Assembly (NCBI RefSeq): GCF_001767295.1
Contig: NZ_CP014944.1
Span: forward strand, 248,001-312,000
DNA from: Colwellia sp. PAMC 20917
Lineage (GTDB): Bacteria; Pseudomonadota; Gammaproteobacteria; Enterobacterales; Alteromonadaceae
DNA: 64,000 nucleotides
Direction of reading: 5' to 3'
Positions 1-18,784 of the stretch are shown here, in pieces. How positions within the stretch are numbered: position 1 is the stretch's first letter; each line of letters begins with the position of its first letter. The notes below the pieces were generated by a model. That model was not told where the DNA came from. It saw nothing but the letters and a program-made list of their open reading frames with translations, and searched no databases. Made by a program: the position numbers and the translations under genes.

Positions 1-350
1 AGTTCTAACTCTTTTTTGGTCGAACTAAAAGACAATCCAAGCTTTGATAGCAAAACACCACCTTCTTTACTTCTTAATATAGGGATGTCCGCAGCATTAT
101 TAAACGAGCGATTTAATATAGAAGCTCGCTCATTTGTTATTTTAATCGGTTTTTTTTCTATACCTAACACATTCCAAATAGCAAATTTAACATCCCAAAG
201 GTAGGAGTCTTCTGACACTTTGAGAATCGATAGTAATTTAGACAACTCACCATTTGTAGATTCCCCCTTTCTTTTAGAGCATTTAAAACGCAAATTGATT
301 ACGTCATCATTAAACGACTCATTAAACGTACCTTCCACATCATCGAACAT
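1..350 (-). CDS. Hypothetical protein, C-terminus cut by window edge
   Basis: An open frame runs from an ATG at 348-350 on the minus strand to the window edge without a stop, about 116 codons, beginning MFDDVEGTFNESFNDD. It is acidic at the start and then mixed hydrophilic, with no signal peptide or membrane segment in the visible part. I do not recognise the family. It lies in the accessory region upstream of a DUF6035-like nuclease gene on the same strand, so it may be cargo of the mobile element. The gene continues outside the window, so its function cannot be judged here. Confidence 0.6.
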   Translation of the reverse strand, partial: MFDDVEGTFNESFNDDVINLRFKCSKRKGESTNGELSKLLSILKVSEDSYLWDVKFAIWNVLGIEKKPIKITNERASILNRSFNNAADIPILRSKEGGVLLSKLGLSFSSTKKELE

Positions 351-688: not shown

Positions 689-1837
689 TTATTTAGTTGT
701 ATGACCACATTTTTTGCATATATGGAACTTACCTACCTGATAAGTATTAGAATACTGATTACATCCAAAACACATCGATATCTTGTTTTTAATATTTACC
801 CTAGTCGATGTTGGTTTACGTTCTTCACTTGATCTTTTGTATAGTGAATAAGTACCTGTTAACCCATTTGATGATGGATGACTTCTTTTATAATCAAATA
901 AAGGCTTATTCCTCTCTTCCTCAGCCTTTATTTTTCGCTCTTTTTGTTCTTGATGAATTAATTCTTTTTTTCGATCAATTTCATCTAACAATTCCAGTTC
1001 AGCTTTATCTGTATCGAAATAAAAAAGCTTGAGATTCACATCATCAAAAATAAGTTCCTTAATTGATACTATTTCACTTTCCCACTCGTGTTCAATTATT
1101 AAAGCCCCGTCCGCAATGTACGGTTTCCGGTAATAACACCTAAAGTACAACTCATTGTGCTGCTGACATAGTGCTCTACATTCATCATCTAGAACCAGTG
1201 CGTTACTTTTATTTGCATACGCTATATCTAACTCTGTAAAACGCTTCCCTTCAAAATTTAAGAATACCCATGCGATATAGGCATTCCTTTCTTTATAAAA
1301 TTTTTCTCTATCGATGATGACATCAATAAATGTCGTGGAAACTTGCAACTCAAATACTATTTTGACTTTATTAATGGTATAAAAGGCACTTACATCCGGT
1401 CTACGCCACTCTTTAGCTACCCCTCTAGTATTTTCTTCCCTAAATGTTTTTTCCATTTTGACATCATCAAATGAGATATCTTTTTTTAAGGTGTCGTGAA
1501 TGAATATTTTATTAGTTTTGTGAGCCAGTCCTTCTTTTTGACCATTAAACTTCATTGCTAAAATTTGCTCAACGGTAAGTTTACAACCTGTTTTTATTGG
1601 ACATATCTCAGAATCTTTAAAATGTCTAAAATGTATTTTTTGCTTTTTAGTCCCTGCAATGATTAATGGTTGAAAACAAATAGGACACAAGAGTGTTCTT
1701 TCTGCTGTCTTTGGTCTTAACTGACGTCTCAACTCAAACAGTGGTTTTTCATCCCAACTTAGAAACTCCTCAGCATCACCTACCCTATCCTCTTCAGGTA
1801 TAAATACTTGATCCATGTTTCTTTTATTAACTATCAC
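689..1837 (-). CDS. DUF6035/CoiA-like PD-(D/E)XK nuclease candidate
   Basis: A 382-aa protein with three recognisable parts. Near residues 51-80 a Cys/His cluster (CPIC, HFRHF, then C79) looks like the zinc-binding head of CoiA-like proteins. Residues 145-165 contain RRPDV followed by FELQVS, which fits a PD-(D/E)XK nuclease core (D148, E163-x-Q165). The C-terminus ends in a zinc ribbon of the CFGC...CKKC type. This pattern is typical of DUF6035 and competence-CoiA-like proteins, predicted nucleases with mostly unknown roles. It is divergent from a WYL-type regulator, an arrangement common in phage-defence loci. The family name comes from pattern memory, and a nuclease role is inferred from the motifs. 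It could act in defence or in handling of incoming DNA. Confidence 0.6.
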   Translation of the reverse strand: MIVNKRNMDQVFIPEEDRVGDAEEFLSWDEKPLFELRRQLRPKTAERTLLCPICFQPLIIAGTKKQKIHFRHFKDSEICPIKTGCKLTVEQILAMKFNGQKEGLAHKTNKIFIHDTLKKDISFDDVKMEKTFREENTRGVAKEWRRPDVSAFYTINKVKIVFELQVSTTFIDVIIDREKFYKERNAYIAWVFLNFEGKRFTELDIAYANKSNALVLDDECRALCQQHNELYFRCYYRKPYIADGALIIEHEWESEIVSIKELIFDDVNLKLFYFDTDKAELELLDEIDRKKELIHQEQKERKIKAEEERNKPLFDYKRSHPSSNGLTGTYSLYKRSSEERKPTSTRVNIKNKISMCFGCNQYSNTYQVGKFHICKKCGHTTK

Positions 1838-1954: not shown

Positions 1955-2791
1955 TTGAAATTAGGAAGCATGGTGTTTATCGACTTACTGTTAATGTACC
2001 GAGGTTACTTAGGTAGAAATGATCTCACTAATATACTTGGTATGGCGCCAGCTTCAGCTACTAGAGCTTTTGCTAGTTATCGAAGTAAATATCCTGACAA
2101 TATTACCTATGATGTAAGTAAAACAAGGTATTCAATTACACCTGACTTTTCACCTGCATTTGAACATAACATAGCTGATGCCATAGACTTAGTACTCAAG
2201 GGTAATGTTGTATTAAGAAAAGTATTAGATATAGATCAGAATCATGTTTATGTGAAAGGAGCTACTTTTCCTTCATCTGATGTTGTAGCAGAATTAACCA
2301 GAGCATTTCACTTAAAGCACTGTGTTGATGTAGATTACGCTTCTTCATCTACCGAAGGGAGTAAGAGAATATTTTCACCTAATTCATTTTTCGATGCTGG
2401 TGGTATTTGGTATGTGCGTGGCGTTAACTTGATGAAAAAAGAGTACCGCACCTATAAGCTATGCCGATTTACTCGCGCAGAATCAATTGATACTACCTAC
2501 GTTTCCAATGATAAAGATGAGGAATGGCATAGTAATATTACGTTAACAATTGCTCCCCATACAAAGCACCCACATCCTGATGCTCTACGATTAGACTTAG
2601 GCTTAGTTGATAAGCCAGTAATCAATATAACAACTAATAAAGTTTTGGCTGGGTTCACATTATCTAAGATGCGAGTGGATAGCTCAAAAGATGCGTTACT
2701 CGATTGTAAAATGTTTAACCTTCAGCTTATGAATCGTCATGAACTAACCGACATTAAATCCATGGATTTTGCTCCTGGGTACAATTTATAG
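1955..2791 (+). CDS. WYL-domain transcriptional regulator (BrxR/CapW-like)
   Basis: A 278-aa protein. The N-terminal 60 residues suit a winged helix-turn-helix (RNDLTNILGMAPASATRAF). The middle carries a WYL-type ligand-binding domain with the usual pattern around residues 135-165 (FSPNSFFDAGGIWYVRG, then KEYRTYKLCRF). A C-terminal domain follows, as in BrxR/CapW regulators, which repress or sense nucleotide signals at defence islands. The frame opens at a TTG (1955) with an alternative ATG at 1970; no strong ribosome-binding site settles the choice, and an in-frame stop at 1925 limits upstream extension. It is divergent from the nuclease candidate with a 117-bp shared promoter gap, so it may control that gene. 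Confidence 0.7.
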   Translation: MKLGSMVFIDLLLMYRGYLGRNDLTNILGMAPASATRAFASYRSKYPDNITYDVSKTRYSITPDFSPAFEHNIADAIDLVLKGNVVLRKVLDIDQNHVYVKGATFPSSDVVAELTRAFHLKHCVDVDYASSSTEGSKRIFSPNSFFDAGGIWYVRGVNLMKKEYRTYKLCRFTRAESIDTTYVSNDKDEEWHSNITLTIAPHTKHPHPDALRLDLGLVDKPVINITTNKVLAGFTLSKMRVDSSKDALLDCKMFNLQLMNRHELTDIKSMDFAPGYNL

Positions 2792-2972: not shown

Positions 2973-4742
2973 TTAACGTTCTTTTAGATCCCAGAGAATT
3001 CTATCACTTGGCTGATAAATCAATCCTGTACCTTCCATTCTCAATGCGCCCTTAAAACAGCCCTTCTTGTCTGATGTTCCTGAACCAAGTAAATGAAAAT
3101 ATAAATGAGGGCACTGAGGTTTTATTACCTCCAACCCTGCCTTTATCGTATTCCAAAGAGCATTAGGTTCCTTTTTATCTTCTTGGACTTCATTCACTTG
3201 TGATTCAACTGATTGATACGGGAGAACATCATCAAGCATTGCTTTTAACTTATATTGTATTTCATCCTCGTCCTCTCCTTCTCGTTCAAGATCATCTTTA
3301 TAATTGAATAATCCTTTAATATTTAATTTGTATGTATCGTCTTTTGAATAGCTACTTAAGATATTGGCTAATTTTTTAATTTCACCTTCTAATTCGGAGG
3401 TTAGTTCAAGACTTAAATAATCATCATTCCAAAATGACATTAATTTTTTACGTATTTGACTTATAACACCTTTAACTTTGGCTATAGGAATACTAGTTTC
3501 CGGTATCAGATGATTTGATTCGTCATTTAGATCGTTATTTGAGTGCCTCGACAGCGCCTCTCCTTCTTTATTATTTGAGATTATTCCTCTGATGAAAACA
3601 GCATCGATTGAGCTTGGTTGTGCTAAATTTTGATTAGTATGTAGAAAAATAACTTTTAACGCGTGCAACGCAAGGCTTTGCTTAACCTTTACGTTTTTAT
3701 CTTCACCAAAATTAATAATATATTTATTACCCGATCTATTTAGCCTTGCTGTTTTAGGCAGTGTAAAATGTCTATATATCAACGGCATGATAAATTCTTC
3801 AAAACTTTCAGCTTCAATTTGAACGTTAGCTAGCCAGAACTGATGATAAGGCGGTATTTCATCTTGGCCAGTAAAATATTCTGATACAACGTGTCTTGAA
3901 AAATATAGTTTATGTGAATCACCAAAATGAATGGCATTGTAATCGTAGTGCGGCAACAGGTTTCTTTGCCAATGCGCTTTGCTAATAACTTGTGGAAGTT
4001 GAGTTGGCTTTTCTTTTAACTTTAATTCATCTTTAAATTTAATAATCGCAGGGTAATAATAAGCGGAGAATGTTCCTGACTGTAGTAAATCTAATAACTT
4101 ATAGTGACATTTAGCCAATAATTTATCATGTGCTGTCATTGGTATATTCGGTATGACTCCTTGCTGCTTATTAGCTTGTCTTAGTTGTTCCATTTCTGCG
4201 AGTTTTTTACTAGCTTCTGGTGACGATAAGTATTTAAGAAGTTCTAGATCCTCTTTTGATATTTCATCTGCTGACAATGCTGATTTCGTTATTTTCTCTG
4301 GCTTGAATGACTCACCTTTTGGATAAATATCTGTGTGAGCTAAACGAGATATTTGGCTTTCAACTTCGTAACTTAACCAAGCTTCTACGCCTTCGCCTAA
4401 TGACTCACTTTTACTTTGACATACAAGCCCATTCTCAGGTGTTAAGAGCATTCCTCCGTCGACGGCATTCGTTAAGTTAATTGATTCTGAGATACCTTGG
4501 TATAACGACCCTTCAAAATAATCATGCCCTAGTGTGTTTACTAATTTGGAGTAGTTAATTGGTTTTAGTGGTGATTTGAGATCATAAAAATTCCAATCAC
4601 CCAATTTTATCTTACTCCTTTTAATTGTAAGTTTGCTTTTAGGCTTTTTTTCTTCAGGCGAGGCTTGTTCAAGCGCTTCTTGCTCTTTTTCTAGCACCCA
4701 TAACATTGCACTAAAAGCTTTACCGATAGGAATTGTTTTCAT
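2973..4742 (-). CDS. Unknown 589-aa protein paired with recombinase
   Basis: A long intact frame of 589 residues that I do not recognise. No signal peptide, membrane segment or nucleotide-binding motif is evident. The N-terminus has a Lys-rich tract (EEKKPKSKLTIKRSKIK) and the middle has charged, helix-prone stretches around residues 165-200. It is divergent from the tyrosine recombinase, with a 101-bp gap holding an 8-bp-arm palindrome. That position suggests a role in element maintenance, recombination control or cargo, but the sequence itself gives no direct functional sign. Confidence 0.65.
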   Translation of the reverse strand: MKTIPIGKAFSAMLWVLEKEQEALEQASPEEKKPKSKLTIKRSKIKLGDWNFYDLKSPLKPINYSKLVNTLGHDYFEGSLYQGISESINLTNAVDGGMLLTPENGLVCQSKSESLGEGVEAWLSYEVESQISRLAHTDIYPKGESFKPEKITKSALSADEISKEDLELLKYLSSPEASKKLAEMEQLRQANKQQGVIPNIPMTAHDKLLAKCHYKLLDLLQSGTFSAYYYPAIIKFKDELKLKEKPTQLPQVISKAHWQRNLLPHYDYNAIHFGDSHKLYFSRHVVSEYFTGQDEIPPYHQFWLANVQIEAESFEEFIMPLIYRHFTLPKTARLNRSGNKYIINFGEDKNVKVKQSLALHALKVIFLHTNQNLAQPSSIDAVFIRGIISNNKEGEALSRHSNNDLNDESNHLIPETSIPIAKVKGVISQIRKKLMSFWNDDYLSLELTSELEGEIKKLANILSSYSKDDTYKLNIKGLFNYKDDLEREGEDEDEIQYKLKAMLDDVLPYQSVESQVNEVQEDKKEPNALWNTIKAGLEVIKPQCPHLYFHLLGSGTSDKKGCFKGALRMEGTGLIYQPSDRILWDLKER

Positions 4743-4843: not shown

Positions 4844-5974
4844 ATGTACGAGGTTGTTAAGTTTTCAAATACGCTGATCAATAAGCGAGAGTTTATTGAT
4901 AAAGAAGTTTTATTAAAAGATACGGAAGTTCCAGGATTGCTTTGTCGTATAGGTAAACGAAGTAAAACCTATTACTTACGCTATTCACAAAAGAATACAG
5001 GCAAGGTTAAAACTAAAAAAATGGGTAATGCTTTATTGCACTTAGTTAGTGATATTCGAAAAAAAGCATTGAAGCAACTGCTTCGTAATGAAGACGGTTT
5101 TGGCGCTGATTTTGAAACAATTAATGATATTATTGATGGTCCATTCTTAACTGATGCACGCATTAACAAGAAGAACATTAAGCCTGAGCTATCAAAATTA
5201 GAGAAGCATATAAGACCTTATTTTGGGCACTTAGAATTCGACCGAATAACACAGCCGCTAATAAATCAGTTTATTGAAGAAAAACTTGAGAGATTAAGTC
5301 ACTCTTCAGTTGATAGATTAAGCGCTATAGCACGTAAAATAGGTCGCTTTGCTGTTGATTCTGGTTCTCACCCTGTTAATGTTTTTAGAAATTGGAAGCA
5401 ATTTAATAGAGATAATACACGCACTCAAACCATGAGACCTGAGCAATTAAAACCTTTTATTGCTTGTTGTTTGCAAGATAAAAATAAAGTTCAGCAAGAC
5501 GTTCTTATGCTGTGCGCTACTGCTGGTGGCCGTATTGGTGAGATAAAACGTATACGAGTATCAGAGGTTAATATTGAAAATGGCACCATTATCTTACCTC
5601 ATACCAAATCTGGTAAAAAGCAAACGTTAATACTCAATTCGTTTGCAATAGAGATAGTTAATCGCCGTATAGCAGAAACCACAAACGAGTGGCTTTTCCC
5701 ATCTAATCGTAAGTTTGGCTCACCTATCCATTACCCACGCGGCTGTTGGGCACGAGTACAGGCGCGGATGCTTGAGCTAGGACATGACATCAGTGACCTA
5801 AGAAACCATGACCTGAGGCGGGTTTTCGGATCTGTTGCAGCAAAAAATAGCGACGTACTAACAACCTCCAAGTTACTTCACCATGGCTCTGTAGGTGTCA
5901 CAATGCGATATATTTCATACCAAGATGATGACTTACGCGATACATCCGAAGCTGTAGCTAACGCTTACAGATAA
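4844..5974 (+). CDS. Tyrosine recombinase/integrase
   Basis: A 376-aa phage-type integrase. The catalytic set is complete: R230 in GGRIGEI, K255 in HTKSGKK, H322-x-x-R325 in NHDLRR, H347 in LLHHGSV and the nucleophile Y356 in MRYISY. The N-terminal 100 residues look like an arm-binding domain (RIGKRSKTYYLRY), followed by a core-binding domain from about 110 to 200. It cuts and rejoins DNA for insertion or excision of a mobile element. It is followed by a strong terminator and lies about 0.7 kb upstream of the piPolB-like polymerase. Pipolins usually encode one or two such recombinases. It has no tRNA gene beside it, so its own attachment site is unclear. Confidence 0.9.
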   Translation: MYEVVKFSNTLINKREFIDKEVLLKDTEVPGLLCRIGKRSKTYYLRYSQKNTGKVKTKKMGNALLHLVSDIRKKALKQLLRNEDGFGADFETINDIIDGPFLTDARINKKNIKPELSKLEKHIRPYFGHLEFDRITQPLINQFIEEKLERLSHSSVDRLSAIARKIGRFAVDSGSHPVNVFRNWKQFNRDNTRTQTMRPEQLKPFIACCLQDKNKVQQDVLMLCATAGGRIGEIKRIRVSEVNIENGTIILPHTKSGKKQTLILNSFAIEIVNRRIAETTNEWLFPSNRKFGSPIHYPRGCWARVQARMLELGHDISDLRNHDLRRVFGSVAAKNSDVLTTSKLLHHGSVGVTMRYISYQDDDLRDTSEAVANAYR

Positions 5975-6083: not shown

Positions 6084-6143
6084 ATTTTTATTTTTATTTT
6101 TATTTTTATTTTTATTTTTATTTTTATTTTTATTTTTATTTTT
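6084..6143. repeat. (ATTTTT)10 hexanucleotide microsatellite
   Basis: Ten uninterrupted copies of ATTTTT run from 6084 to 6143, between the recombinase terminator and the leader of the polymerase block. Such tracts are prone to slippage. This one is upstream of a gene and out of any frame, so it could vary promoter spacing or simply be a bendable AT tract. Confidence 0.95.
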
Positions 6144-6353: not shown

Positions 6354-6602
6354 ATGGCTAAGAAAATATTCTTTCCTAACGGCGATTTTGCTAGGGATTC
6401 TATGATTGGCGTTGGTACGCTTACTTCTAAAGGGGTGATGGTTAAAGACAATAACTCATCGATGCTAAGTAACATCATTGAACCCGATGAAGTAAAGCGG
6501 TTTCTCATTCGAGAAGAGATTGAGAAAATTGTTGATGCGTGTGATGCAGGTAGGTTCTATCAACCGGACTGGAACAAGTTACTTAAAGATGACGATTTAT
6601 AA
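6354..6602 (+). CDS. Small hypothetical protein before the polymerase
   Basis: An 82-aa protein starting MAKKIFFPNGDFARDS, preceded by a reasonable ribosome-binding site (AAGGTG, 6 bp before ATG). The C-terminal half is charged and helix-prone (EEIEKIVDACDAGR). There is no signal peptide or known motif. It is the first gene of the co-directional polymerase block, separated from the polymerase by a terminator-like hairpin. It is much smaller than known terminal proteins of protein-primed replicons and shows no feature of one. A regulator or excisionase-like role is possible but unsupported. Confidence 0.6.
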   Translation: MAKKIFFPNGDFARDSMIGVGTLTSKGVMVKDNNSSMLSNIIEPDEVKRFLIREEIEKIVDACDAGRFYQPDWNKLLKDDDL

Positions 6603-6698: not shown

Positions 6699-9401
6699 AT
6701 GTCACAAAATTCATTAACCCCTAAATATCATGAGCAAGAAGCTTTTGATGATTCTTATACTTCAGACTTGAATGTTCATCGTCTCACCGTACAAGAAATT
6801 AACGAATCTATTGGTTCATTAGATGATGTAGTCACCGCTGAGGGTGGTACTTTATATATGAGCATGAGTAGTGCTTGGCAGCGTCGACCCGACCGAGAAG
6901 CTAATCATATTCTTTGTTATACGGCTTCCGTCTATACAAAAGATAGAGGCGAGGATGCTAAAGAGCGTTCATACATAATTTACACCGATGGCCCAAAACG
7001 TTCTCAGCGTATGTCTTTAAATAAGCTATTTGGACATGTCATTCACCAAGCTAAACAAGATAAAATGGTGGATGTGTGGCCTAAAAAAGTAGTCGTGTTT
7101 TGCCACTTTATGCGAGGTGATATCGTAAATTTCAGTGATTTTTGGAATACTGATAATAAGCATAGTGTAGAGGGATTACGGGATACTGTGCTAAGTTTAG
7201 GACTGCCCAAAAGTATCATTAAGCAGGTCGGTATCGACGACAATACCGATATAATGTTTATTGGTTCTAACCGACGTGTTAAGCGCAAAACGTTATTACT
7301 TCGGGATAAAGCAAGAAAGCCTCGTCAAGTCCAGTTCAAGTTTATTGATACTACACTGTTATCACCGCTTAATAATGGCTCCCAAAAGGATACTGCTAGG
7401 TTAACTGGATTGGACGAACCAATAATTCCGCAGGGGCAAAGCACTACTGACATGCTTAAATTTAAGAATGATCTGCCTCGAGAGTTTGAAGCTTATGTGT
7501 TAGCTGAAGCCAAAATTGCACTCCACTTTGGCTTACATATGATGAAGACCATCAAGCAAGAGTTCGATCAAGATACTCTGCCCTCAACACTTGGCAGCCT
7601 TGGGGTAAAGCTTGTTAAACAAAGCTTCGAAGACGAAGACCATTTTCAGCGTGTTTTTGGTTTATCGCACCAAAAAGTGCCTTACTACAACCAAAAGACT
7701 AATAGAGTGCAAACTCGTGATGAGACTATTATAGACCCCGTTGTAGATACGTTTTATAAGCTTGCGACTAGCTCTTTCAAAGGAGCACATAACGTTGCTT
7801 ATTCTATTGGCGCAACGAAAAATGAGGTAGCTACGGATCTTGATTTAACCGGAGCTTATTCCATGGGCCTATTAGATTTATGTGAGCCTGATTATGATAG
7901 GGCTGTTACAACAAAAGATCCTAACGACTTTAAAGGTCACGTATTAGGTTTTGCTTACGCTGAAATTGAATTCCCTGAAAGTGTTCGTTATCCAACGATT
8001 GCTTTTAGGGCTGGTACTAATGGCCTGTACTTTACGCACAAAGGCACCTGTTATGTCACTGCCGCTGAGATAGATTTAGCGTTGCGACTTGGTGCTAAGG
8101 TCGATATTAAGACAGGCTGTGTTATCCCTTGGAAAAATGATAAACGATTCTTTGAACCTGTGATCAAAGAACTTAGGGCTAAGCGTAAAAGTTTTCCTAA
8201 AAAGTCCACTGAAAATGAGATGTACAAACTCATAATGAACAGTATCTATGGTAAAACAGGGCAAGGTTTATCGGGTGCTACAGGCTTTAATACCTCGTCT
8301 GGTGAGAGCAAGAAGATCCCACCAAGTGATATTACTAACCCGTTTATTGCTAGTCATATAACGGGATTGCTTAGGGCTGTCATTGGTGAGTTGCTTAATA
8401 ACTTACCTGATGATGTAAAGTTAATAAACGCCATTACTGACGGCTTTTTATCGACTATCGATATAAAAGATCCTAATAATATTCAGCCTCACGAAGTTGA
8501 TACCTCCGGTGAGTTGTGTCAGCGATTCCAAGCATTAGTACATCGTGTTGATCCTGGTGCTCACATGTTAGAAGTTAAAAGTAAATCTAACCAATTGATA
8601 TGCGGCAAAACACGACTTCATTTTACTACAGAGCCTCACCCTGATTGGTCTGAGACTAAAGACCAAGTACTTGCTAAAGGTAGTATTAGTATACCTAAAG
8701 AGCACTTATCAGACCCACACACCTTTATGGCTGAGACTTATTTAAATAGGTATCCCGGGCAGAAAATGACTAACACGCATCTGATTTCTACACGCCAACA
8801 ATGGTTAACCGAAAGTGATTTAATTAGCTACAAGCGCGAAATCACCTTAAACATGGAGTTCGACTTTAAACGTAAACCTGTTAATCCGAGAATGGTCAGT
8901 ACGCCTTATGGTATGTGTTTAAGCTTTGATACTGAGTCATGGGAGACAGTAGAGCAAGGACTTATAGCTAGAGGTATATTCGACCAGTGGCGTAGGGATA
9001 ACAGCTTAAATACTGTAGAGAAGTTCCATGAATTTGATGATTACTATCAATTACAGTTTGCTAAGAAGAGCTCAGGGTTAAGACGGATGAGTTCTGATAG
9101 CTGTGGTGATATTTTCATTAAGTTATTCATTCGTGCTTATAAGCAAGGTAAGTGTAACTTAACAAAGGCTGGTACTGATAAGTCCTTGAGTGAGTGGCTT
9201 ATGAGTAATGGCTATTCTAAAGGTGTTTGTAACTTTTCAAATGCTAAAAAAGCTGAGTTCTTTCCTCATTGTCTACCTTACACCGACAGCGTCATGCAGG
9301 CAGTTAAGCTTGTATTGACGAAGTTTCCTGATTTATCACTAGCACTTTTCTTCACTGTTGATGCGATGATTAAAGTTGATAGCGAGTTAGGTGGTTCCTA
9401 A
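6699..9401 (+). CDS. piPolB-like family B DNA polymerase (pipolin type)
   Basis: A 900-aa family B DNA polymerase. Polymerase motifs are present: motif A DLTGAY with D382, motif B K510-LIM-NSIYG, motif C TDG with D581, and a KTR motif at 637-639 where other family B enzymes have KxY. The long segment between motifs A and B leaves room for TPR1/TPR2-type insertions. This set, the length, a long C-terminal extension beyond about residue 650 and the lack of a terminal-protein gene nearby match the primer-independent polymerases (piPolB) of pipolins, which can start DNA synthesis without a primer. The exonuclease domain looks inactive: ExoI D-x-E is replaced by S57-S58-A59 in LYMSMSSAW, ExoII keeps D141 (HFMRGD), and ExoIII is Y266-x3-E270 instead of Y-x3-D. 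A plasmid or viral DNA_pol_B_2 enzyme is the alternative. Confidence 0.8.
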   Translation: MSQNSLTPKYHEQEAFDDSYTSDLNVHRLTVQEINESIGSLDDVVTAEGGTLYMSMSSAWQRRPDREANHILCYTASVYTKDRGEDAKERSYIIYTDGPKRSQRMSLNKLFGHVIHQAKQDKMVDVWPKKVVVFCHFMRGDIVNFSDFWNTDNKHSVEGLRDTVLSLGLPKSIIKQVGIDDNTDIMFIGSNRRVKRKTLLLRDKARKPRQVQFKFIDTTLLSPLNNGSQKDTARLTGLDEPIIPQGQSTTDMLKFKNDLPREFEAYVLAEAKIALHFGLHMMKTIKQEFDQDTLPSTLGSLGVKLVKQSFEDEDHFQRVFGLSHQKVPYYNQKTNRVQTRDETIIDPVVDTFYKLATSSFKGAHNVAYSIGATKNEVATDLDLTGAYSMGLLDLCEPDYDRAVTTKDPNDFKGHVLGFAYAEIEFPESVRYPTIAFRAGTNGLYFTHKGTCYVTAAEIDLALRLGAKVDIKTGCVIPWKNDKRFFEPVIKELRAKRKSFPKKSTENEMYKLIMNSIYGKTGQGLSGATGFNTSSGESKKIPPSDITNPFIASHITGLLRAVIGELLNNLPDDVKLINAITDGFLSTIDIKDPNNIQPHEVDTSGELCQRFQALVHRVDPGAHMLEVKSKSNQLICGKTRLHFTTEPHPDWSETKDQVLAKGSISIPKEHLSDPHTFMAETYLNRYPGQKMTNTHLISTRQQWLTESDLISYKREITLNMEFDFKRKPVNPRMVSTPYGMCLSFDTESWETVEQGLIARGIFDQWRRDNSLNTVEKFHEFDDYYQLQFAKKSSGLRRMSSDSCGDIFIKLFIRAYKQGKCNLTKAGTDKSLSEWLMSNGYSKGVCNFSNAKKAEFFPHCLPYTDSVMQAVKLVLTKFPDLSLALFFTVDAMIKVDSELGGS

Positions 9402-9593: not shown

Positions 9594-9944
9594 ATGCAAT
9601 TACTTAATTACTTACCCTCTGCCCAAGACCTATTACTGCCCTCACCTGTGATTAATAAACTCATTACTTTATTAATTGAGCCTTTTGGTGCTAAGGAAAC
9701 TGCTTTAGCTTTTTGGGCAGAAGGCCAAACACGTTTACTAATAATCACTAAAGCTTCTGACCTACAAACAATCAAAACTTCATTAAGTCCATCCGTGCTA
9801 CGGCAAGTTGATGATGCCTTTAGTAACCCTGAGTTTATCGAAGACTTACCTGAGCAGTATGCCTTATCACTCACAGTTTTCAGTGATGAAGGTCATGGTT
9901 TATATGTGCTCAGGCCGAGCGAGTTAACTTTTGAAGTACATTGA
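9594..9944 (+). CDS. Hypothetical protein, 116 aa
   Basis: A soluble 116-aa protein starting MQLLNYLPSAQDLL, with no recognised motif or signal peptide. It sits on the plus strand directly after the polymerase terminator and begins a run of small genes that continues to the partition pair. The long minus-strand frame over it is a shadow. Function unknown; probably an element-specific accessory protein. Confidence 0.6.
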   Translation: MQLLNYLPSAQDLLLPSPVINKLITLLIEPFGAKETALAFWAEGQTRLLIITKASDLQTIKTSLSPSVLRQVDDAFSNPEFIEDLPEQYALSLTVFSDEGHGLYVLRPSELTFEVH

Positions 9945-10110: not shown

Positions 10111-10671
10111 ATGAACACCGAAACAACAAGCGAACCTACTAAAGTAACTAATGGCTTACAGCCTGACGTTAATAAAGCGGATAAAAACGATGATGCAATA
10201 AGTGATTATGTCGTATTACTTACTGGAGAAGCGCCAAAACTATCAGCAAAGTCTGCAGGCTCCATTGGCTTTGAAATAGGCCAACACATTGAGAGTAAGC
10301 AGAAGTATATTAGACTAACCACTAATTCAAGCGCAGGCTTGTACAGTAAGAAGTGGTTTAGCCTTTCGGCCTTCATTGATTTATTGAGTAACCGTAAAGA
10401 CGAGAAGCCTTTTAAAACTTCATTGTTTAAGGCTATTGTGGCTGGAGGCTCAAGTAATACGGTTTCCTTTATCGCGGCTACAATGCGCAGTAAAAGTGTT
10501 GGTTTAATTGCAGCAAGTCCTAACAATCTATATTTACATGTTGTGAGTGATGATTTCGATAAACGTGTTACTGAGCTTAATAAGTTAACGCCACCATCAA
10601 CTGATAAATTAACTGATAAAGCAACTGATAAAGCAACCACACCAAAAACCCCAGTAAAGCCTAACAAGTAA
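10111..10671 (+). CDS. Hypothetical protein with TDK-repeat tail
   Basis: A 186-aa protein with a polar, low-complexity N-terminus (residues 1-30), a globular middle from about 31 to 155, and a repetitive C-terminal tail rich in T, D, K and P (TDKLTDKATDKATTPKTP). The central domain is not recognised. A GCGAGAG stretch precedes the ATG. It is co-directional with the polymerase genes. The disordered ends and basic tail would suit a DNA- or protein-binding accessory factor, but this is only an inference. Confidence 0.6.
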   Translation: MNTETTSEPTKVTNGLQPDVNKADKNDDAISDYVVLLTGEAPKLSAKSAGSIGFEIGQHIESKQKYIRLTTNSSAGLYSKKWFSLSAFIDLLSNRKDEKPFKTSLFKAIVAGGSSNTVSFIAATMRSKSVGLIAASPNNLYLHVVSDDFDKRVTELNKLTPPSTDKLTDKATDKATTPKTPVKPNK

Positions 10672-10705: not shown

Positions 10706-11134
10706 ATGAAACTACTCTTTAACAGGGATCAGTGCTTTGCTATGCCCGAAGCCTTCTTCGCCCTGCTAAACAATGAAGTAATTAAAAACGGAGTAAGCCC
10801 GGAAGTAACTACTATCATTCTTAATTTTAATGACCCAACCTATTCGGCCACTAACGGTGGATTTCACGCTGTAGAGGTAATGATAACCAAGGCTAATAAT
10901 CTTTGGGAGTTGGCTTACGTGACAGACCTTGCTTATCACGGCGCACCCTACCATGAATTAGTGAAAGAGATAGACGTTTGCTTTACCACTAAGCGTGTTT
11001 ATCACCTATATGGCGGTTGGCTTGGTGACAAAGAAAGTGCTGAGTTAGCAACGTTATTTATTGATAATTTTATTGATAATTTTATTGAATATTATGCAAT
11101 GGGAGTTTATACCGTTGAAATCAAAAAAAACTAG
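10706..11134 (+). CDS. DUF2787 family protein
   Basis: A 142-aa protein matching the DUF2787 pattern as I remember it: an N-terminal segment with a central SATNGGFHAVEV, then ITKANNLWELAYVTDLAY, and the strongly conserved block ELVKEIDVCFTTKRVYHLYGGWL, ending in a FIDNFIEYYAMGVY segment. Near the end the octapeptide-like IDNF is duplicated (FIDNFIDNFIEY). DUF2787 proteins occur on mobile elements and chromosomes of marine gammaproteobacteria; their function is unknown. A GTGAGAT ribosome-binding site lies upstream. It overlaps the start of the glycine-zipper gene. Confidence 0.75.
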   Translation: MKLLFNRDQCFAMPEAFFALLNNEVIKNGVSPEVTTIILNFNDPTYSATNGGFHAVEVMITKANNLWELAYVTDLAYHGAPYHELVKEIDVCFTTKRVYHLYGGWLGDKESAELATLFIDNFIDNFIEYYAMGVYTVEIKKN

Positions 11135-11460: not shown

Positions 11461-12054
11461 ATGAAAATATTATTCTGTTCACTTAAAGGTGGTGTGGGTA
11501 AAAGCTCATTAGCTGCTAATCTAGCCACTTATATTAATTCTGCTTATGTTACTAATGACATAGTAGTCCCTAATAAAACAAAGGCTTATCAGATACCTCA
11601 CTCAACTAAACGTATACCCTTTGAATTTCAACACTTAAAGAATGTTGTTTTTGATTTAGGTGCAATGAGTACTAATATCGATCCTAAAGTATCTCATGCA
11701 GCTAGATTCTGTAATGTTTGTGTGATCCCTACTTTAATGGATGAACGAAGTGTACAAGCAACAATTGAAACGTATAAATTGCTTGAGCCTAGTGGAATAC
11801 CTATTGTCATTATTATTAATAATTTCACCAAGCAAAAGAAACACGACGAGGTACGAGAATATTTGATCGAAGTGCTTGATTACCCTCCAATATATTCAAT
11901 ACGGACAACCACGCTATTTGAGAGAGTAGCGACTCATGGTGAGCAGTGGTATAAACAGGTCCATCAAGAAATGGGGGAGCATCAGCTTAATAAGTCTCGA
12001 CGAATTCATGAACGAGTTTATGACGCGATTATTGCTTATGGTGGTTTTTTATGA
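11461..12054 (+). CDS. parA: ParA-family partition ATPase
   Basis: A 197-aa ParA/MinD-type ATPase. The deviant Walker A motif KGGVGKSS occupies residues 9-16, a Walker A'/B-like segment reads VVFDLGAMST, and the conserved region around VIPTLMDERSVQATIE follows. It is a short ParA without an N-terminal DNA-binding domain, as in plasmid type Ib systems that pair with a ribbon-helix-helix partner. Its stop overlaps the start of that partner by 4 bp (ATGA), so the two are translationally coupled. Partition genes in an integrated element suggest that it can be kept as a plasmid-like form. Confidence 0.9.
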   Translation: MKILFCSLKGGVGKSSLAANLATYINSAYVTNDIVVPNKTKAYQIPHSTKRIPFEFQHLKNVVFDLGAMSTNIDPKVSHAARFCNVCVIPTLMDERSVQATIETYKLLEPSGIPIVIIINNFTKQKKHDEVREYLIEVLDYPPIYSIRTTTLFERVATHGEQWYKQVHQEMGEHQLNKSRRIHERVYDAIIAYGGFL

Positions 12055-12242
12055 AAATACAAACCTTAAAAGAAATTGAACATTCGATAGGTGGTAGAAC
12101 TAAATCTGATAATAGAAAAGTCAGATTAACATTCTACTTGAACCCTAGCGAAGCTAGAATTCTTAAAGATTATGCCAGTAATAATGACCAATCAATCAGC
12201 GAGATTGTAAGGCTGTCATTAAAGAAATGGATCAATAAATAA
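12051..12242 (+). CDS. Ribbon-helix-helix protein, likely ParB-type partner
   Basis: A 63-aa basic protein. Residues 22-62 fit the ribbon-helix-helix fold: a strand KVRLTFYLNP, helix SEARILKDYASNN and helix SISEIVRLSLKKWI. Small RHH proteins downstream of short ParA ATPases serve as centromere-binding partners and autorepressors in type Ib partition systems. The gene overlaps parA by 4 bp and is followed by a terminator. No iteron-like centromere array stands out nearby; the AT-rich octamer repeat just downstream is an unproven candidate. Confidence 0.75.
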   Translation: MKIQTLKEIEHSIGGRTKSDNRKVRLTFYLNPSEARILKDYASNNDQSISEIVRLSLKKWINK

Positions 12243-12964: not shown

Positions 12965-13020
12965 TAGACACAATGACTTACAAGGTGCTAGCCTCTCAAC
13001 GTGAGTAGTCATTGTGTCTA
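12965..13020. repeat. Perfect 14-bp inverted repeat at the HEPN stop codon
   Basis: TAGACACAATGACT (12965-12978) and AGTCATTGTGTCTA (13007-13020) are exact inverted copies around a 28-nt loop. The loop itself can form small hairpins (CTCAACGTGAG). The right arm includes the stop codon of the HEPN-like gene. No T run follows on either strand, so it is not a standard terminator. Confidence 0.85.
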
Positions 13021-13575
13021 CATTTGTACTGCTAATAGCCCACTACCAGAAGAACTGAAAGGATTGTCTTCCAATCCTGCGGCTAGATGCAACTCTTTAA
13101 TAACTTGTTGAATATCATTTAATGCAACTTTTGCGTTTTTTAATGTTGCAAAATCTTTCCATGTAGGACCAACTGAAAAATGATTAATATTTCCCAATTC
13201 AACTTCAATTTCCATTTGAATCTCATCTGTCGACGTTTTGCCATGAGCCATGGTATCTCTAAATTTAAAAACACTCACCACTGATTTGTAAGGTCTTTTA
13301 TTAAAATCAGGGGTAATTCCAAGCTCATCACAAAACTTTTTATACTTCTTTAATTTGGGTAGTTTTCGTTCTACCTTGCTCCAATCATCGTGTCTAAGAC
13401 TACCTAAGTGATTAAAATAAGCTTCTAGAGTAAATGCAGAAAAAATAATACAACTTATTACATTATATAACTGTCCTTCCTCAGAATATTCTGCCAGTTC
13501 AAGCATATGAGTCGCACCAATATTCATATAGGCAAATGTAATTGTTTCAAATCCCCCCCTTACAGAAGTTTTCAT
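13018..13575 (-). CDS. HEPN-like protein, possible RNase
   Basis: A 185-aa mostly helical protein. Residues 101-113 read SVFKFRDTMAHGK, giving an R106-x4-H111 motif typical of HEPN domain ribonucleases, preceded by the helical segment ISCIIFSAFTLEAYFNHL as in HEPN proteins of the RiboL-PSP or MAE_28990-like type. A clear ribosome-binding site (GGGGAGGG) precedes the ATG. HEPN proteins often act as RNA-cutting toxins in toxin-antitoxin or defence systems. No nucleotidyltransferase antitoxin is adjacent. The domain assignment rests on this motif and helix pattern only. Confidence 0.55.
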   Translation of the reverse strand: MKTSVRGGFETITFAYMNIGATHMLELAEYSEEGQLYNVISCIIFSAFTLEAYFNHLGSLRHDDWSKVERKLPKLKKYKKFCDELGITPDFNKRPYKSVVSVFKFRDTMAHGKTSTDEIQMEIEVELGNINHFSVGPTWKDFATLKNAKVALNDIQQVIKELHLAAGLEDNPFSSSGSGLLAVQM

Positions 13576-13625
13576 ACCCTCCCCTTATATACATAAACCT
13601 TCATCTTGATAGTCAACAAAGCCAC

Positions 13626-13783
13626 CAGGCTGTGTGATAACTCTCAGCTTACAATTTTTATGCAACGCTACGTAAATTCAAAGGTAGTTTGACGCCAAAC
13701 TTATTACAGATTTAAATCTACAGAGCATTTTTTCGTTGATATTTCCGAATTACGCAAGTTCAAAATAATTTTTTCACAGCCTG
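13626..13783. mobile_element. MITE-like repeat, copy 1
   Basis: A 158-bp noncoding unit bounded by exact 9-bp inverted ends, CAGGCTGTG at 13626-13634 and CACAGCCTG at 13775-13783. The interior aligns in the same orientation with copy 2 at 16765-16921, including an identical 23-bp stretch at 13656-13678. A GCCACC direct repeat flanks the ends (13621-13626 and 13783-13788) and may be a target duplication. The size, inverted ends and lack of a transposase fit a miniature inverted-repeat element mobilised in trans. Confidence 0.7.
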
Positions 13784-13901
13784 CCACCATAAAAGACATT
13801 AGGTAGTAAGCGCTAAATAATGTTTAGGATTAGATTTTGTCTTTGTTAAACAGATGTTATGTGCGATTAAAACTAATTTAACTCAAAAAAAATAAAGTGT
13901 A

Positions 13902-14456
13902 CTATAAGTTTTCACACTTTATTTCATATTCTGGGAACTTTTCTATAATACTTCCAATCACAACAACGCCACTGCCATATTTTGAAGATACTATTAAAGT
14001 ATATGACTTTGACTTTTTCAATAGCTCATCAACTTTAAAATATGAATACTGCAATTTATTGAAAAGTTTGTTTCCCTTACGCACCTTCCGTGTGTTTTGA
14101 TCAAAAGTTAGTTCATAATCATAAGCAACTTCACCCGTATCTATGTCGATTTTATATGAAGTAAAAATATTATAAATATTCTCTCCCTCGGTAAATCGTA
14201 CATTTGTAAAACCAACATAATCCTCCTCTTTAACTTCCTCTAAGGGAATAAAAGGCACTGTAAACACAATATGATTTTGAAGAAATGTTCCCCTTCTGCA
14301 AGCTAAAAATACAGGGTAAGAATCCGTCTTACTATTGGTGAAAAGCATCACTGTATCTTTCATATATTCAGACTGATGTATCACTGCTTCATTTGCTAAA
14401 GCATTTAACGAACACATAGACAAAAAAACAAGTAAAAAACATTTTATTTTAAGCAC
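13902..14456 (-). CDS. Exported hypothetical protein
   Basis: A 184-aa protein with a typical Sec signal peptide at residues 1-22 (basic MLKIK, hydrophobic core, cleavage after ALA before NEA), so the mature part is periplasmic or secreted. The mature protein has two Cys residues far apart (ACRRG and KCENL) that could form a disulfide. No family is recognised. It lies inside the segment bracketed by the two MITE-like repeats, with two other exported proteins on the same strand. Confidence 0.65.
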   Translation of the reverse strand: MLKIKCFLLVFLSMCSLNALANEAVIHQSEYMKDTVMLFTNSKTDSYPVFLACRRGTFLQNHIVFTVPFIPLEEVKEEDYVGFTNVRFTEGENIYNIFTSYKIDIDTGEVAYDYELTFDQNTRKVRKGNKLFNKLQYSYFKVDELLKKSKSYTLIVSSKYGSGVVVIGSIIEKFPEYEIKCENL

Positions 14457-14596
14457 TTCTAATATTTCCTATTGCGCTGAATAAATATTAATAGTTCATG
14501 TAAAAAAAAAACTAAGTGACTAACTACAGAATACTTGTCATGGGATAGTACATAATAACTTATTATGGAGGCGTAATTCATATAATAAACCTGTAT

Positions 14597-15583
14597 TTAT
14601 AAATCCTTGTTTATGCCAGAACACTCTTTTATCATTCTTTCTTTAGCGTCCATATAGCCTTTAGTACTGAATACAATAGTGTGCTTGTCATTCGATACAA
14701 TTATTTTGTTGGAGTTGAGGTATTCAGTAATATTAGCTAATGGTATTTGCAATTCATAATTATCATCAAATTCGCCTTCTAAAAAAACAAATTCGTGTTC
14801 AACACCGTTAACACTGAGGTTAATTTTACCTTTACTATTATATTCTAGCCCAAGGTTTTGTATCGTTTTCCCCGCTAAACTTAAATAATGTGTATTAACC
14901 GAATCATTGTATGTTCCAACAGAACAATAAAAATATAGATTAGAGCTGTAATCAGAACTAAACGTATGAATTGTGTTCCTAAAATGCCCATCGCCTTTTC
15001 TTTTTGAGAACATAAAGTCGTTAAAAACCTTAAAACTACCGCCTTGACGTGTAATATTTCTAGTTTTATATAATGCATTAGTGGCTTCAGCTATGCAGCT
15101 ACCAGTAAAGTATGATTCACTTTTATTCATAAACTTCTCTTTTTGAGCCACGCATGGATCATAACATTCATTTACTATAGCTTTTGATAGTGAACCAACT
15201 TCGCTAATACCATCATCGAACTCAATTGCGCTTTTGGTTATGCAGCTTGAGGATTTGTTTAATATAGATAACCTCTGAATATCAGAGAGTTTACTTATGC
15301 AAGAGAAGTAGACGCTACCTTTAGGGTAATTTCCTAGTATATAAGGGCCGGGATTGGTTTTAGTAGATATAACATCTATTTGTTCATTCCTAATATTGCA
15401 GAAATGTACAGCTATTTTCTCAGCCTCCTGAACTAAAGGTAAATTATTTAATGGAAAAGTACCTTCCTCTCTTTCTACTAAATAGGTGTTTTTTGAAACC
15501 AGAGTTGGACCATAAGTTTTAGTGGCCGAACAGCCCATTAGTAAAAAATTTCCAAATAAAAATAGTAAAACTAAATTGCGCAT
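14597..15583 (-). CDS. Hypothetical lipoprotein, 328 aa
   Basis: The N-terminus MRNLVLLFLFGNFLLMGCSAT is a lipoprotein signal with the lipobox LMGC, so the mature protein should be lipid-anchored at Cys18. The rest has several Cys residues (VHFCNIR, FSCISK, SSCITK, NECYDPC, GSCIAE), which suggests disulfides in the periplasm. No domain is recognised. A ribosome-binding site is not strong. It is separated by 140 bp from the downstream exported protein on the same strand and may be cotranscribed with it. Confidence 0.65.
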   Translation of the reverse strand: MRNLVLLFLFGNFLLMGCSATKTYGPTLVSKNTYLVEREEGTFPLNNLPLVQEAEKIAVHFCNIRNEQIDVISTKTNPGPYILGNYPKGSVYFSCISKLSDIQRLSILNKSSSCITKSAIEFDDGISEVGSLSKAIVNECYDPCVAQKEKFMNKSESYFTGSCIAEATNALYKTRNITRQGGSFKVFNDFMFSKRKGDGHFRNTIHTFSSDYSSNLYFYCSVGTYNDSVNTHYLSLAGKTIQNLGLEYNSKGKINLSVNGVEHEFVFLEGEFDDNYELQIPLANITEYLNSNKIIVSNDKHTIVFSTKGYMDAKERMIKECSGINKDL

Positions 15584-15754
15584 ATAAATCTCACGAGTGA
15601 TTGCTTTGTAAAATCTATCTTCTTGACCATTTTTATGGCACCACTACATAACGCATTGCCTGAATAAATGAATATTTTAAGGTTAGTGAATTGGAAAATA
15701 GAATAAAAATAGCAAGATACAGTTGAATTATATCTTGCTATCAAAAAAAGTAAC

Positions 15755-16336
15755 TTAAAAGTGAGCTTTGATATCAATAGTTAATAAATTTGCATCATCT
15801 GCAATTTGATACCCTGCGCCAATTGAAACTGTTTCGTTCAGGTAAAAAGCAGCAGCTATACCAAAAGCTGTTTCAGATTCACCATCTAGACTATCGCGGG
15901 TTGCTTGAACAACGACTTCAAAATTATCAGACAACATTGATTTTACGCCAGCACCTAAAGAGTATCCATTTTCATCCTCAGAGGTATTGTCATATTCTAT
16001 CTCTGCATTTAAGTAAGAAACTTGACCGAATAAGTCAGTGGTTTCATTAAGGCCGTGACGAATACCTAAACCCAAATTCCAGGTTGATAGATCTATATCT
16101 TCATCATAAACTTCTTCTGAAACTAAGCGATATTTTCCGTGAAAATATACATTATCATTGATTAACTTTGAGCCTAAAAAGGTGAAGCCTGTTGGTTCAA
16201 AATCAGAATCCTTGATGTCAACGCTAACATAGCCCACACCAATGTTGTTCCAACTTGGAGATTTGGCCATTGATAATGTAGATACTGTCAGTGTTGTAAA
16301 AAGAAGAGTGGTTAAAGCTAAAGATTTGTTTTTCAT
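15755..16336 (-). CDS. Outer-membrane beta-barrel protein
   Basis: I choose the start at 16336 (MKNKSLALTTLL) because an AAGGAA site precedes it and a Sec signal peptide follows directly (cleavage near SMA-KS); a longer frame extends upstream to 16531 but adds a sequence that is not protein-like. The mature part of about 170 residues consists of alternating polar and aromatic stretches (GVGYVSVDI, NLGLGIRHGL, YSLGAGVKSML) and ends in a C-terminal Phe, the usual sign of an eight-stranded outer-membrane barrel. The exact family and ligand are unknown. Confidence 0.7.
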   Translation of the reverse strand: MKNKSLALTTLLFTTLTVSTLSMAKSPSWNNIGVGYVSVDIKDSDFEPTGFTFLGSKLINDNVYFHGKYRLVSEEVYDEDIDLSTWNLGLGIRHGLNETTDLFGQVSYLNAEIEYDNTSEDENGYSLGAGVKSMLSDNFEVVVQATRDSLDGESETAFGIAAAFYLNETVSIGAGYQIADDANLLTIDIKAHF

Positions 16337-16764
16337 TAAAAATTCCTTGTAGTGTTTAATGCAGGCATGAGCAAAGCTTTTAGCTTCCATGCCAGCACTA
16401 AATTTAACAGATCGCAGCCTCATTGCAAAGAGAACTTTTGGTTTAATTAGTAAAGACAACACGTTATGTGTAGTCAGGTGTAATAGATAAGCATATAACT
16501 TTCTTGATTCACAAAAAGATATCGTGCCCAATTCAATTACATATTGTCATGCTTCAACAAAATTGGGAGGCATAGTATATTTTGGTTGTTTTCTTAATGA
16601 CCACTTAAACCCACAAAATAAAGTTAGCTTTAACCTATTTATGATGAATGACCATATTGGTGGCTAAGCGCACTATTTATTGCGGATAATTCAAGGCGAA
16701 ATTAGGTCTTCTGTGTGGCATGACCTGAACTGAATTGATGATTACTCTACTTCCGCTTTTGGCT
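16337..16764. other. Intergenic DNA upstream of the barrel gene
   Basis: About 430 bp with no supported gene. The minus-strand frame continuing upstream of the barrel start lacks a ribosome-binding site and gives poor protein-like sequence. The region should hold the promoter of the barrel gene. It ends at the second MITE-like repeat. Confidence 0.5.
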
Positions 16765-17175: not shown

Positions 17176-18366
17176 TCAAAATGAAATTAAATCACTAACC
17201 GTCTGCCCTACCAACCTTTGCCGTTGCTCCGACACCTTAGAATATCTTTGCGAACTGGCAATATTGGCGTGGCCTAGCTGGATCATGACATCATACAAAT
17301 CTCGACCGCTTGAAATTAAGGCGGTAGCCACGCTGTGGCGGCACGTATGAAAACAAACTTCTTTACGATTTATCCCCGCTTTCTTAAGTACTACATCGTA
17401 AGCCCACCTTGGTTCTGAAATGTGCTTACCTGTGATCAAACTTGAAAATATATACGGGTTACTTTCACGTTTGGGTAATTCACAAATAAGCTTCATCATT
17501 TCGTCGCTAAGATAGATTTCTCGGCTTTTACCTGATTTTGTCATAGGAACATAGAGTTTTCGTTTACCTTTATCTAAATGCTTCCACTGCGCTGTCAGCA
17601 ATTCCATTTTACGCACACCAGAATACAGAAGTAGAGCAATAAACCGACCAGCAAATGGATTCGGGTATTTAACAGCTTGCTGAATGATTTTTTTCATTTC
17701 TCCTACAGTGAAGTACCTTGTTCTTGTATTATCTTCCTTAAGCAATTTTATTTTGTTAGCCTGATTAATTTCAATAATCCCCCAAGCAATAGCTTGTTGC
17801 CCCATAGTTTTAAGCAAGGCTAATGTTCGATTACACGTTGATGGTGCAAATATTTTTGTGAAACCCTCACCGGATAACATATCCATTTGTAGGCGTTGTA
17901 CATCTAAAGCTGTTACTTCATCGTAATACTTATTACCGAAACGTTTACTGACATAATCTGTGTATCTTTGAAGATCATGCTTCCATGACCGTTTATTTTG
18001 TTTGATATAAGGTAAATAACTGTCATTGAAATAATCATTTAAGGTTGGCATTAACTTTTGATTTTCACGTTCTTGCTTAGGGTCAACACCTGATGCAACT
18101 TGCGTTAAGTGTTTTCTAGCTATACTACGGGCATCGTTAACATTGATATCTGGAAATTTGCCGATTGTTAATGAGCGTTTTTTAGATTTTATCTGATAGC
18201 GAACTAAATACCTTTTGCTTCCTGTCTTACCAACTAATAGCTTAAGGTTTGATATTTCAGTATCAGTATATTCTTGATCAGTTGATCTAGAATCAATGTC
18301 ATTAGCAGGTAAAGCTTTTAGTTTTGAATTTGTAAACTTGAATCGAGTTTGGTTATGTACTGGCAT
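17176..18366 (-). CDS. P4-type tyrosine integrase next to tRNA-Leu
   Basis: A 396-aa integrase with an N-terminal DUF4102-like arm-binding domain (residues 1-100, KRSLTIGKFPDINVNDAR), a core-binding domain at about 105-205 and a catalytic domain with all residues: R252 (SGVRKMELL), K277 (TKSGKSR), H340-x-x-R343 (HTCRH), H366 (LGHANI) and nucleophile Y375 (SQRYSK). This class inserts genomic islands at the 3' ends of tRNA genes. It lies 418 bp from the 3' end of tRNA-Leu(UAA), so that tRNA gene is the probable attachment site. It is the second recombinase in the accessory region; whether both serve one element is open. Confidence 0.92.
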   Translation of the reverse strand: MPVHNQTRFKFTNSKLKALPANDIDSRSTDQEYTDTEISNLKLLVGKTGSKRYLVRYQIKSKKRSLTIGKFPDINVNDARSIARKHLTQVASGVDPKQERENQKLMPTLNDYFNDSYLPYIKQNKRSWKHDLQRYTDYVSKRFGNKYYDEVTALDVQRLQMDMLSGEGFTKIFAPSTCNRTLALLKTMGQQAIAWGIIEINQANKIKLLKEDNTRTRYFTVGEMKKIIQQAVKYPNPFAGRFIALLLYSGVRKMELLTAQWKHLDKGKRKLYVPMTKSGKSREIYLSDEMMKLICELPKRESNPYIFSSLITGKHISEPRWAYDVVLKKAGINRKEVCFHTCRHSVATALISSGRDLYDVMIQLGHANIASSQRYSKVSEQRQRLVGQTVSDLISF

Positions 18367-18784
18367 TATTAAATTCTCCGCGATTATTTAATGGATCCAA
18401 TAATTTAATATATGCTCAGAGTTTATTTACTTTCGGACATAGTTCAGTGTATTTAAACCGGATATAGACCATAGGGAATGGTACTTAACACTACGAGTAG
18501 ATTGTTTTAATAACGAAATGAATAGCAATTTTTTAATAATAAGTGCCTGCGTATAGACAGGAAACTGAATTGTAAGATTAGATGGACAGTATCGCGACAG
18601 GAAATTGCTAGGGTTATGTACGTAAAATTAAGTTTTATATGTTAAATGTAGTAGTGTTTCGATGCGTATAAAGTTAATAAAAAGCTAAAATAAGGACGAA
18701 TAATTGATTATTTTCAATGAAGATGAAACTGAGTGATTTGTGGTATAACTTATTGATTAACAGAGGATATACAGAATAAAAAGG
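18367..18784. other. Integrase-tRNA gap, candidate attachment region
   Basis: No gene is visible. The gap lies between the integrase start and the 3' end of tRNA-Leu, where the right attachment site of a tRNA-targeted island should be. Two similar short direct repeats, GACAGGAAACTG near 18557 and GACAGGAAATTG near 18596, could be integrase arm-type sites, and a related CCTGTCC occurs near 17130. This is inference from position. Confidence 0.4.

Follow-up and report, generated by a model that had tools for sequence, protein, structure and literature searches.

What kind of DNA polymerase is encoded by a 900-codon open reading frame (ORF) in Colwellia sp. PAMC 20917, and what kind of element carries it, are the questions raised by the 64,000-bp stretch analyzed here (the window; G000:C1:248001-312000 of a 4.68-Mb single-contig genome). 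An earlier note on this DNA had read the gene as a primer-independent family B polymerase (piPolB) and, together with the tyrosine recombinases and the tRNA-Leu gene that lie near it, as part of a pipolin. Both recombinases and the tRNA are present (Table 1), and the reading is supported by the clade of the polymerase, the attachment-site (att) repeats, the recombinases and the tRNA-Leu site; the loss of exonuclease residues from the polymerase is a feature that the note did not mention. Taken as a whole, the locus is very probably explained by an integrated pipolin of 23.3 kb, whose polymerase would start synthesis by itself on the template and would lack 3′-5′ exonuclease activity.

Placement of the polymerase in family B

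The ORF begins with ATG and contains no internal stops, and all of the motifs previously reported in its product are present, namely motif A (DLTGAY, from residue 382), motif B (KLIMNSIYG, residues 510–518), motif C (TDG, residues 580–582) and KTR (residues 637–639). The protein matches the Pfam family DNA_pol_B_2 (E = 2.7e-10; score 40.2 bits, cut-off 25.8) and four PHROG families of polymerase type. A tree was built from 32 aligned rows, comprising 26 piPolB-like sequences, with that of the window included, and six protein-primed polymerases (phi29, PRD1, phi44AHJD, Cp-1, His1 and LCBv1); fragments and split genes were omitted, except for the middle piece of a Neptuniibacter gene. Clade placement had been set in advance as the test on which the piPolB identity could fail, and the protein fell inside the clade, the 26 rows being split from the six with support of 100/99. 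A chance match of motifs was rejected on the family and tree results. On this placement and these motifs, the window polymerase is a member of the piPolB clade of family B and is predicted to be primer independent.

Motifs were counted over 36 piPolB rows or pieces, window included, a set that contains some near-copies and some pieces of a single gene. KTR, a motif typical of piPolB, occurs in 31 of the 31 piPolB rows that cover the site and in none of the six protein-primed rows, and the first Asp of motif C is absent from all 31 covering piPolB rows and present in five of the six protein-primed rows. At the YxGG-like motif, the window polymerase has GA for the conserved GG, alone among the piPolB rows covering it. 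Absence of the first Asp of motif C is described for primer-independent family B polymerases in general (PMC7544198).

The closest tree partner of the window polymerase is the Neptuniibacter piece (100/98), and the same gene, from a metagenome-assembled genome (MAG), is also its best direct match when the tree is set aside (43% identity). Identity of the polymerase (Pol) part with other piPolBs is 32–51%, and the C-terminal part (residues ~650–900), which proteobacterial piPolBs also have, is 24–37% identical to theirs. A tblastn search of plasmids matched 45 records (best E = 2e-28, all below 60% identity) from Pseudosulfitobacter (30), Staphylococcus (10) and Fusobacterium (5), among them S. 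epidermidis pSE-12228-03, which is presumably a published piPolB plasmid. The piPolBs of this plasmid and of Fusobacterium pSB051A lie on the same side of the tree as the window polymerase and share its motifs; unlike it, they have intact exonuclease residues, and the annotation of their records includes a recombinase-family protein together with a relaxase or MobC. The plasmid pipolin hosts named in a software paper (PMC9710591) include S. epidermidis.

The predicted fold brings in the alternative of an ordinary protein-primed polymerase of a linear element or prophage, which would need a terminal protein bound to the ends. When an AlphaFold model of the 900-aa protein (mean pLDDT 76, pTM 0.74) was used in a PDB fold search, phi29 polymerase chains were the top nine matches (best E = 6.7e-16); a phmmer search of PDB sequences gave no match to the polymerase at E ≤ 10. 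Pfam DNA_pol_B_2 spans viral enzymes too, the domain being noted in the record of His1 virus, which is protein-primed, and a search of phage records gave a single match, to the protein-primed polymerase of an archaeal virus (5e-8). This alternative is, however, opposed by the tree, by the presence of KTR and by the absence of the first motif C Asp, and phi29 polymerase itself, which has an adjacent terminal-protein gene, differs from that of the window in its DTD motif C and its lack of KTR. Moreover, the element ends in direct repeats, and its two 600-bp ends share no inverted match better than one of 10 bp. The 82-aa and 116-aa neighbors of the polymerase match no terminal-protein family in PHROGs or NCBIfam, a weak point because such proteins are poorly conserved and hard to recognize. 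On the tree, motifs and element ends, a protein-primed polymerase was rejected as a very improbable explanation. A phage origin was likewise rejected: a viral-contig scan gave 421 pattern matches, none of which was confirmed as a relative.

The earlier suggestion of an undescribed pipolin lineage holds for the polymerase sequence, given its distant best match and a literature search in which no paper with both "pipolin" and "Colwellia" was found, most subscription papers lying outside that search. It goes too far for the element, which has the same site as an E. coli element and four clear homologues in it. Pipolins and piPolBs are already known, and pipolins are reportedly described in a 2024 survey as bimodular carriers of defence genes. 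The polymerase lineage is new to the searches made; with its best match at 43% identity, the polymerase is a deep piPolB branch within an element that is ordinary in kind.

The exonuclease active site

Three of the four metal-binding carboxylates of the exonuclease are replaced in the window polymerase, and the polymerase site is intact. At ExoI it has S57 and A59 (codons AGT and GCT) in place of Asp and Glu, whereas D and E stand there in all 28 other rows or pieces that cover the site, seven being without coverage; at ExoIII the Asp is replaced by E270 (GAA), and all 30 other rows with coverage have D. The ExoII residue, D141, is retained, and among the other covering rows two have E and one piece, with R, is misaligned at its start. 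The Neptuniibacter sister keeps the exonuclease residues, and its sequence aligns without gaps with that of the window across ExoI (GIDSEW and SMSSAW, respectively; LFVGIDSEWEYDPETG against LYMSMSSAWQRRPDRE); the change is therefore a substitution and not a frame slip. In E. coli numbering the ExoI pair is D59/E61, presumably the pair that has been mutated in the laboratory to abolish exonuclease activity.

Given these three exchanges beside a preserved polymerase site, 3′-5′ exonuclease activity is likely to be absent, and the window polymerase is probably a naturally proofreading-dead piPolB. The simplest reading would be that the residues were lost on the window branch. The chances are roughly even that a primer-independent polymerase evolved into a proofreading-dead one by loss of the ExoI pair and the ExoIII Asp after its split from the Neptuniibacter relative, giving a self-priming, error-prone enzyme on a mobile element. 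In that case, pipolin replication would manage without proofreading, or else the enzyme would serve mainly in bypass or mutagenic synthesis. Where nature has kept the polymerase site of an enzyme and lost its exonuclease site, the two activities are set apart, and if the window polymerase still supports its element, proofreading would be dispensable there and replicase and bypass models would be directly comparable.

A pipolin in early decay or domestication, with its exonuclease residues lost, its polymerase disused and the island kept as a carrier of cargo, could also account for the three replacements. The exonuclease part seems to evolve faster, the window branch taking 13.8% of the tree length for this part and 9.3% for the Pol part (22-row trees), and the ratio of exonuclease to Pol identity is 0.69 in 23 window pairs vs. 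0.81 (sd 0.12) in 217 other pairs, pairs with more than 55% Pol identity having been dropped. The piPolB genes of other loci (L013, L021, L024, L038 and L039) are broken by stops, frame breaks or insertion. Decay is nevertheless unlikely: the window gene has 900 stop-free codons and has kept its polymerase motifs, the motifs of tyrosine recombinases can be read in recombinase 1 and for the most part in recombinase 2, and the losses hit catalytic residues while ExoII is kept.

Several of these results also weigh against the reading of a proofreading-dead piPolB that still serves its element. The faster exonuclease part fits relaxed constraint or early decay too, and does not tell adaptation and decay apart; ExoII D141 is retained; the tree program warns of long branches and names the window polymerase with the Neptuniibacter piece among the pairs that meet, which makes the deep order less sure; and the sister gene is in three ORFs in its MAG, a state that may reflect faulty assembly.

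The integrated element and its site

The element (G000:C1:243543-266848) is 23,306 bp long with both repeats included, and its GC content is 0.351, compared with 0.404 and 0.370 in the 4-kb flanks. In one other genome of the genus (G003), flanks that are ~93% identical on both sides enclose only a tRNA array and a remnant repeat with no pipolin, and the distance from the major facilitator superfamily (MFS) transporter gene to pgsA is 2.2 kb, vs. 25 kb in the window genome. Because a piPolB-clade polymerase, recombinases and conserved pipolin genes lie between direct repeats, in an insertion that is missing from a relative, the polymerase gene belongs, on gene content and borders, to an integrated pipolin in a Colwellia genome. 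Direct att repeats, tyrosine recombinases and a tRNA-Leu site are also traits of published pipolins (PMC7385651).

A caution here is that the clean empty-site comparison comes from only one of the five other same-genus genomes: the transporter is missing from G001, pgsA is present only as a fragment in G002, the two genes are on separate contigs in G004, and in G005 an integrase related to that of the window adjoins the tRNA. No piPolB was found in the G005 genome; DNA 72–76% identical to recombinase 2 adjoins tRNA-Leu there (positions 15345–16442 of L074, G005:C39:288001-306500), in what may be a related island without a polymerase or a remnant.

A 43-bp left repeat (C1:243395-243437; L048:15395-15437) was rejected as attL in favor of the 71-bp copy, since it is also found in G003; being common to that pipolin-free genome, it is therefore a remnant older than the present insertion and marks where a previous element was inserted at this site and lost. 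An Rfam scan of window positions 1–24000 found tRNAs only. The tRNA array at 18785–20001 consists of three tRNA-Leu(TAA), three tRNA-Gly and one tRNA-Cys, and degraded Gly-like stretches between the copies, in the window and in G003 (L071), suggest that tRNA genes were duplicated in tandem and decayed at a hotspot of integration.

Table 1. Features of the pipolin and its integration site, in window coordinates (attL in contig coordinates).
Feature	Position	Strand	Remarks
366-aa ORF, cargo	1..350 (window part)	-	begins in window, ends 750 bases left of it; last 207 aa scanned, HNH domain
DUF7830/DUF6035 protein, cargo	689..1837	-	CoiA nuclease-like stretch
WYL-domain regulator, cargo	1955..2791	+	domain match
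589-aa protein, cargo	2973..4742	-	no match above Pfam cut-off, nor in PADLOC or NCBIfam at E ≤ 0.01
Tyrosine recombinase 1	4844..5974	+	Phage_integrase E = 6.8e-18; upstream of piPolB
(ATTTTT)x10 array	6084..6143	+	perfect; between recombinase 1 and the 82-aa/piPolB gene pair
82-aa ORF	6354..6602	+	directly upstream of piPolB; homologue upstream of Neptuniibacter sister piPolB, E = 5.4e-16
piPolB	6699..9401	+	900 aa; Pol motifs intact; ExoI carboxylates replaced (S57, A59), ExoIII E270, ExoII D141 kept
116-aa gene conserved in pipolins (orf116)	9594..9944	+	phrog_32947; E. coli element too
186-aa gene conserved in pipolins (orf186)	10111..10671	+	phrog_28971; E. coli element too
DUF2787 protein	10706..11134	+	E. 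coli element too; groups with three Colwellia pipolins (99/98)
ParA-like ATPase	11461..12054	+	homologues among compared loci only in L017, L028, L029
Ribbon-helix-helix-like protein	12051..12242	+	beside ParA; Pfam below cut-off; homologues in L017, L028, L029
Further ORFs, probably cargo	13018..16531	-	185 aa, 184 aa, 328 aa, outer-membrane beta-barrel-like 258 aa
Tyrosine recombinase 2	17176..18366	-	arm-DNA-binding domain; beside tRNA; nearest E. coli/Aeromonas pipolin integrases, best E = 9.4e-133, ≤50% identity
attR	18778..18848		71-bp repeat overlapping tRNA-Leu 3′ end; 69/71 identical to attL
tRNA-Leu(TAA)	18785..18870	-	integration target, complete at attR
attL	G000:C1:243543-243613		~4.4 kb left of window; 71-bp copy of tRNA-Leu 3′ end

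Relatives, gene content and putative maintenance

The E. coli element mentioned above (L045, NZ_CP046716.1) is presumably a pipolin of the kind described in PMC7385651, its record being without that label. It occupies a tRNA-Leu(TAA)-Cys-Gly site by pgsA-uvrC-uvrY, as the window element does, and likewise has one recombinase upstream of piPolB and a second beside the tRNA, the KTR and TDG motifs, and phmmer homologues of recombinase 2 (1.2e-131), orf116 (4.2e-13), orf186 (2.5e-23) and DUF2787 (1.5e-24). Identity of the two polymerases is 43% over the Pol part and 30% over the exonuclease part, the exonuclease carboxylates being lost in the window only. The elements also differ in the direction of orf116-orf186-DUF2787, which is towards the tRNA in the window and away from it in E. 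coli, and in the ParA and ribbon-helix-helix (RHH) pair of the window element. In the loci of E. coli, Aeromonas and Neptuniibacter, a recombinase likewise precedes piPolB in the position of recombinase 1, to which it is only distantly similar (at most 27%). The likeness of recombinase 1 to the E. coli element is less exact than position implies: the positional counterpart in L045 matches recombinase 1 at 1.5e-28 and recombinase 2 at 2.4e-28, and the homology is therefore at family level only. All but one of the E. coli pipolins reported in PMC7385651 are at a Leu-tRNA gene, and a piPolB stretch from genome G221, used as query, matched 298 of 5,426 E. coli genomes.

The locus of the sister polymerase (L021, Neptuniibacter sp. 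MAG Gpa_13) has a homologous 82-aa gene and a recombinase upstream likewise. Its piPolB, split into three ORFs, is 40–44% identical per piece to that of the window and has intact exonuclease residues, and homologues of DUF2787, orf186 and orf116 were not found at E ≤ 1e-3 in the 22.6 kb compared. The nearest relatives of the window's DUF2787, orf186, orf116 and ParA/RHH genes are in three Colwellia pipolins (L017, L028 and L029), whose polymerases are placed elsewhere in the piPolB tree (L028 through its near-copy L027) and in whose stretches tRNA-Leu was not found. The compared loci have limited flanks, and ParA/RHH homologues may lie beyond them.

Trees of accessory genes (17, 17, 13 and 12 rows picked from homologues, with near-copies, cut genes and second-type recombinases left out) group DUF2787 with the three Colwellia pipolins and orf186 likewise, less firmly (80/89). 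Recombinase 2 is placed with E. coli, Aeromonas and Aeromonas L022 (84/91), and the position of recombinase 1 is weakly supported (58/32). By these affinities the element is a mosaic, its polymerase being nearest to Neptuniibacter, its DUF2787 and ParA genes to Colwellia pipolins and its tRNA-side integrase to E. coli and Aeromonas, which suggests that polymerase genes, DUF2787 genes and the tRNA-side integrase travel separately.

Maintenance of the pipolin would start with excision by recombinase 2, which would also insert the element at tRNA-Leu. The piPolB would then initiate strands directly on the template, with need of neither primer nor terminal protein, and extend them, copying the excised form, and the ParA/RHH pair, which suggests a phase as a circle that needs partition, would help the excised circle to segregate. 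As it probably lacks 3′-5′ exonuclease activity, the piPolB would copy or bypass without proofreading. Activity, excision, circles and replication are predictions from sequence only, a further point against this scheme, and its replicase step is the least certain because the biological role of piPolB is still called unclear in PMC9710591.

The window polymerase might instead be a lesion-bypass or primase-like accessory enzyme, or a part of defence, rather than a replicase, with the loss of proofreading adaptive to that role. Bypass synthesis is compatible with absence of proofreading, and some of the cargo resembles defence genes, namely a 706-aa AAA ATPase in the left part that matches PADLOC IetA models (best 2.4e-44), the HNH protein and the WYL regulator. 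In addition, a putative role of piPolB in damage tolerance or repair is said in PMC9710591, alongside its remark on biological role, to have been shown. On the other hand, no complete known defence system was recognized in the proteins scanned, no search having been aimed at the usual partner of the ATPase, and the presence of ParA/RHH suggests that the element has an extrachromosomal phase, for which replication would be needed. An accessory role is thus possible, though rather doubtful, and the self-starting polymerase that copies an excised pipolin is the preferred explanation.

Two further observations concern the left part of the element. The gene for the 589-aa protein, a candidate cargo or defence gene, lies between recombinase 1 and the WYL regulator gene and is convergent with the latter, and a change in copy number of the (ATTTTT)x10 array could alter expression. 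A type-4 uracil-DNA glycosylase, which is frequent but not defining in pipolins, was not found among the proteins scanned, some small ORFs lying outside the scan.

Genomes with a match to the polymerase, the window genome included, number 7 of 147 among relatives, 14 of 394 in the order, 1 of 369 in the class (the window genome itself) and 4 of 398 in the phylum; these sets overlap, and the phylum set was surveyed by profile search. The named loci L014–L031 are a sample, 18 loci from one scan with two peptide patterns. In a tRNA scan of 20 loci, tRNA-Leu-Cys-Gly was found beside the integrase in four (L015, L023, L045 and L046), tRNA-Trp in four (L016, L018, L020 and L024), tRNA-His in three and tRNA-Asn in two (in one of them with others), and seven had none. 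One contig of a same-order genome (G089:C1; loci L008 and L002) carries two different piPolB genes ~16 kb apart.

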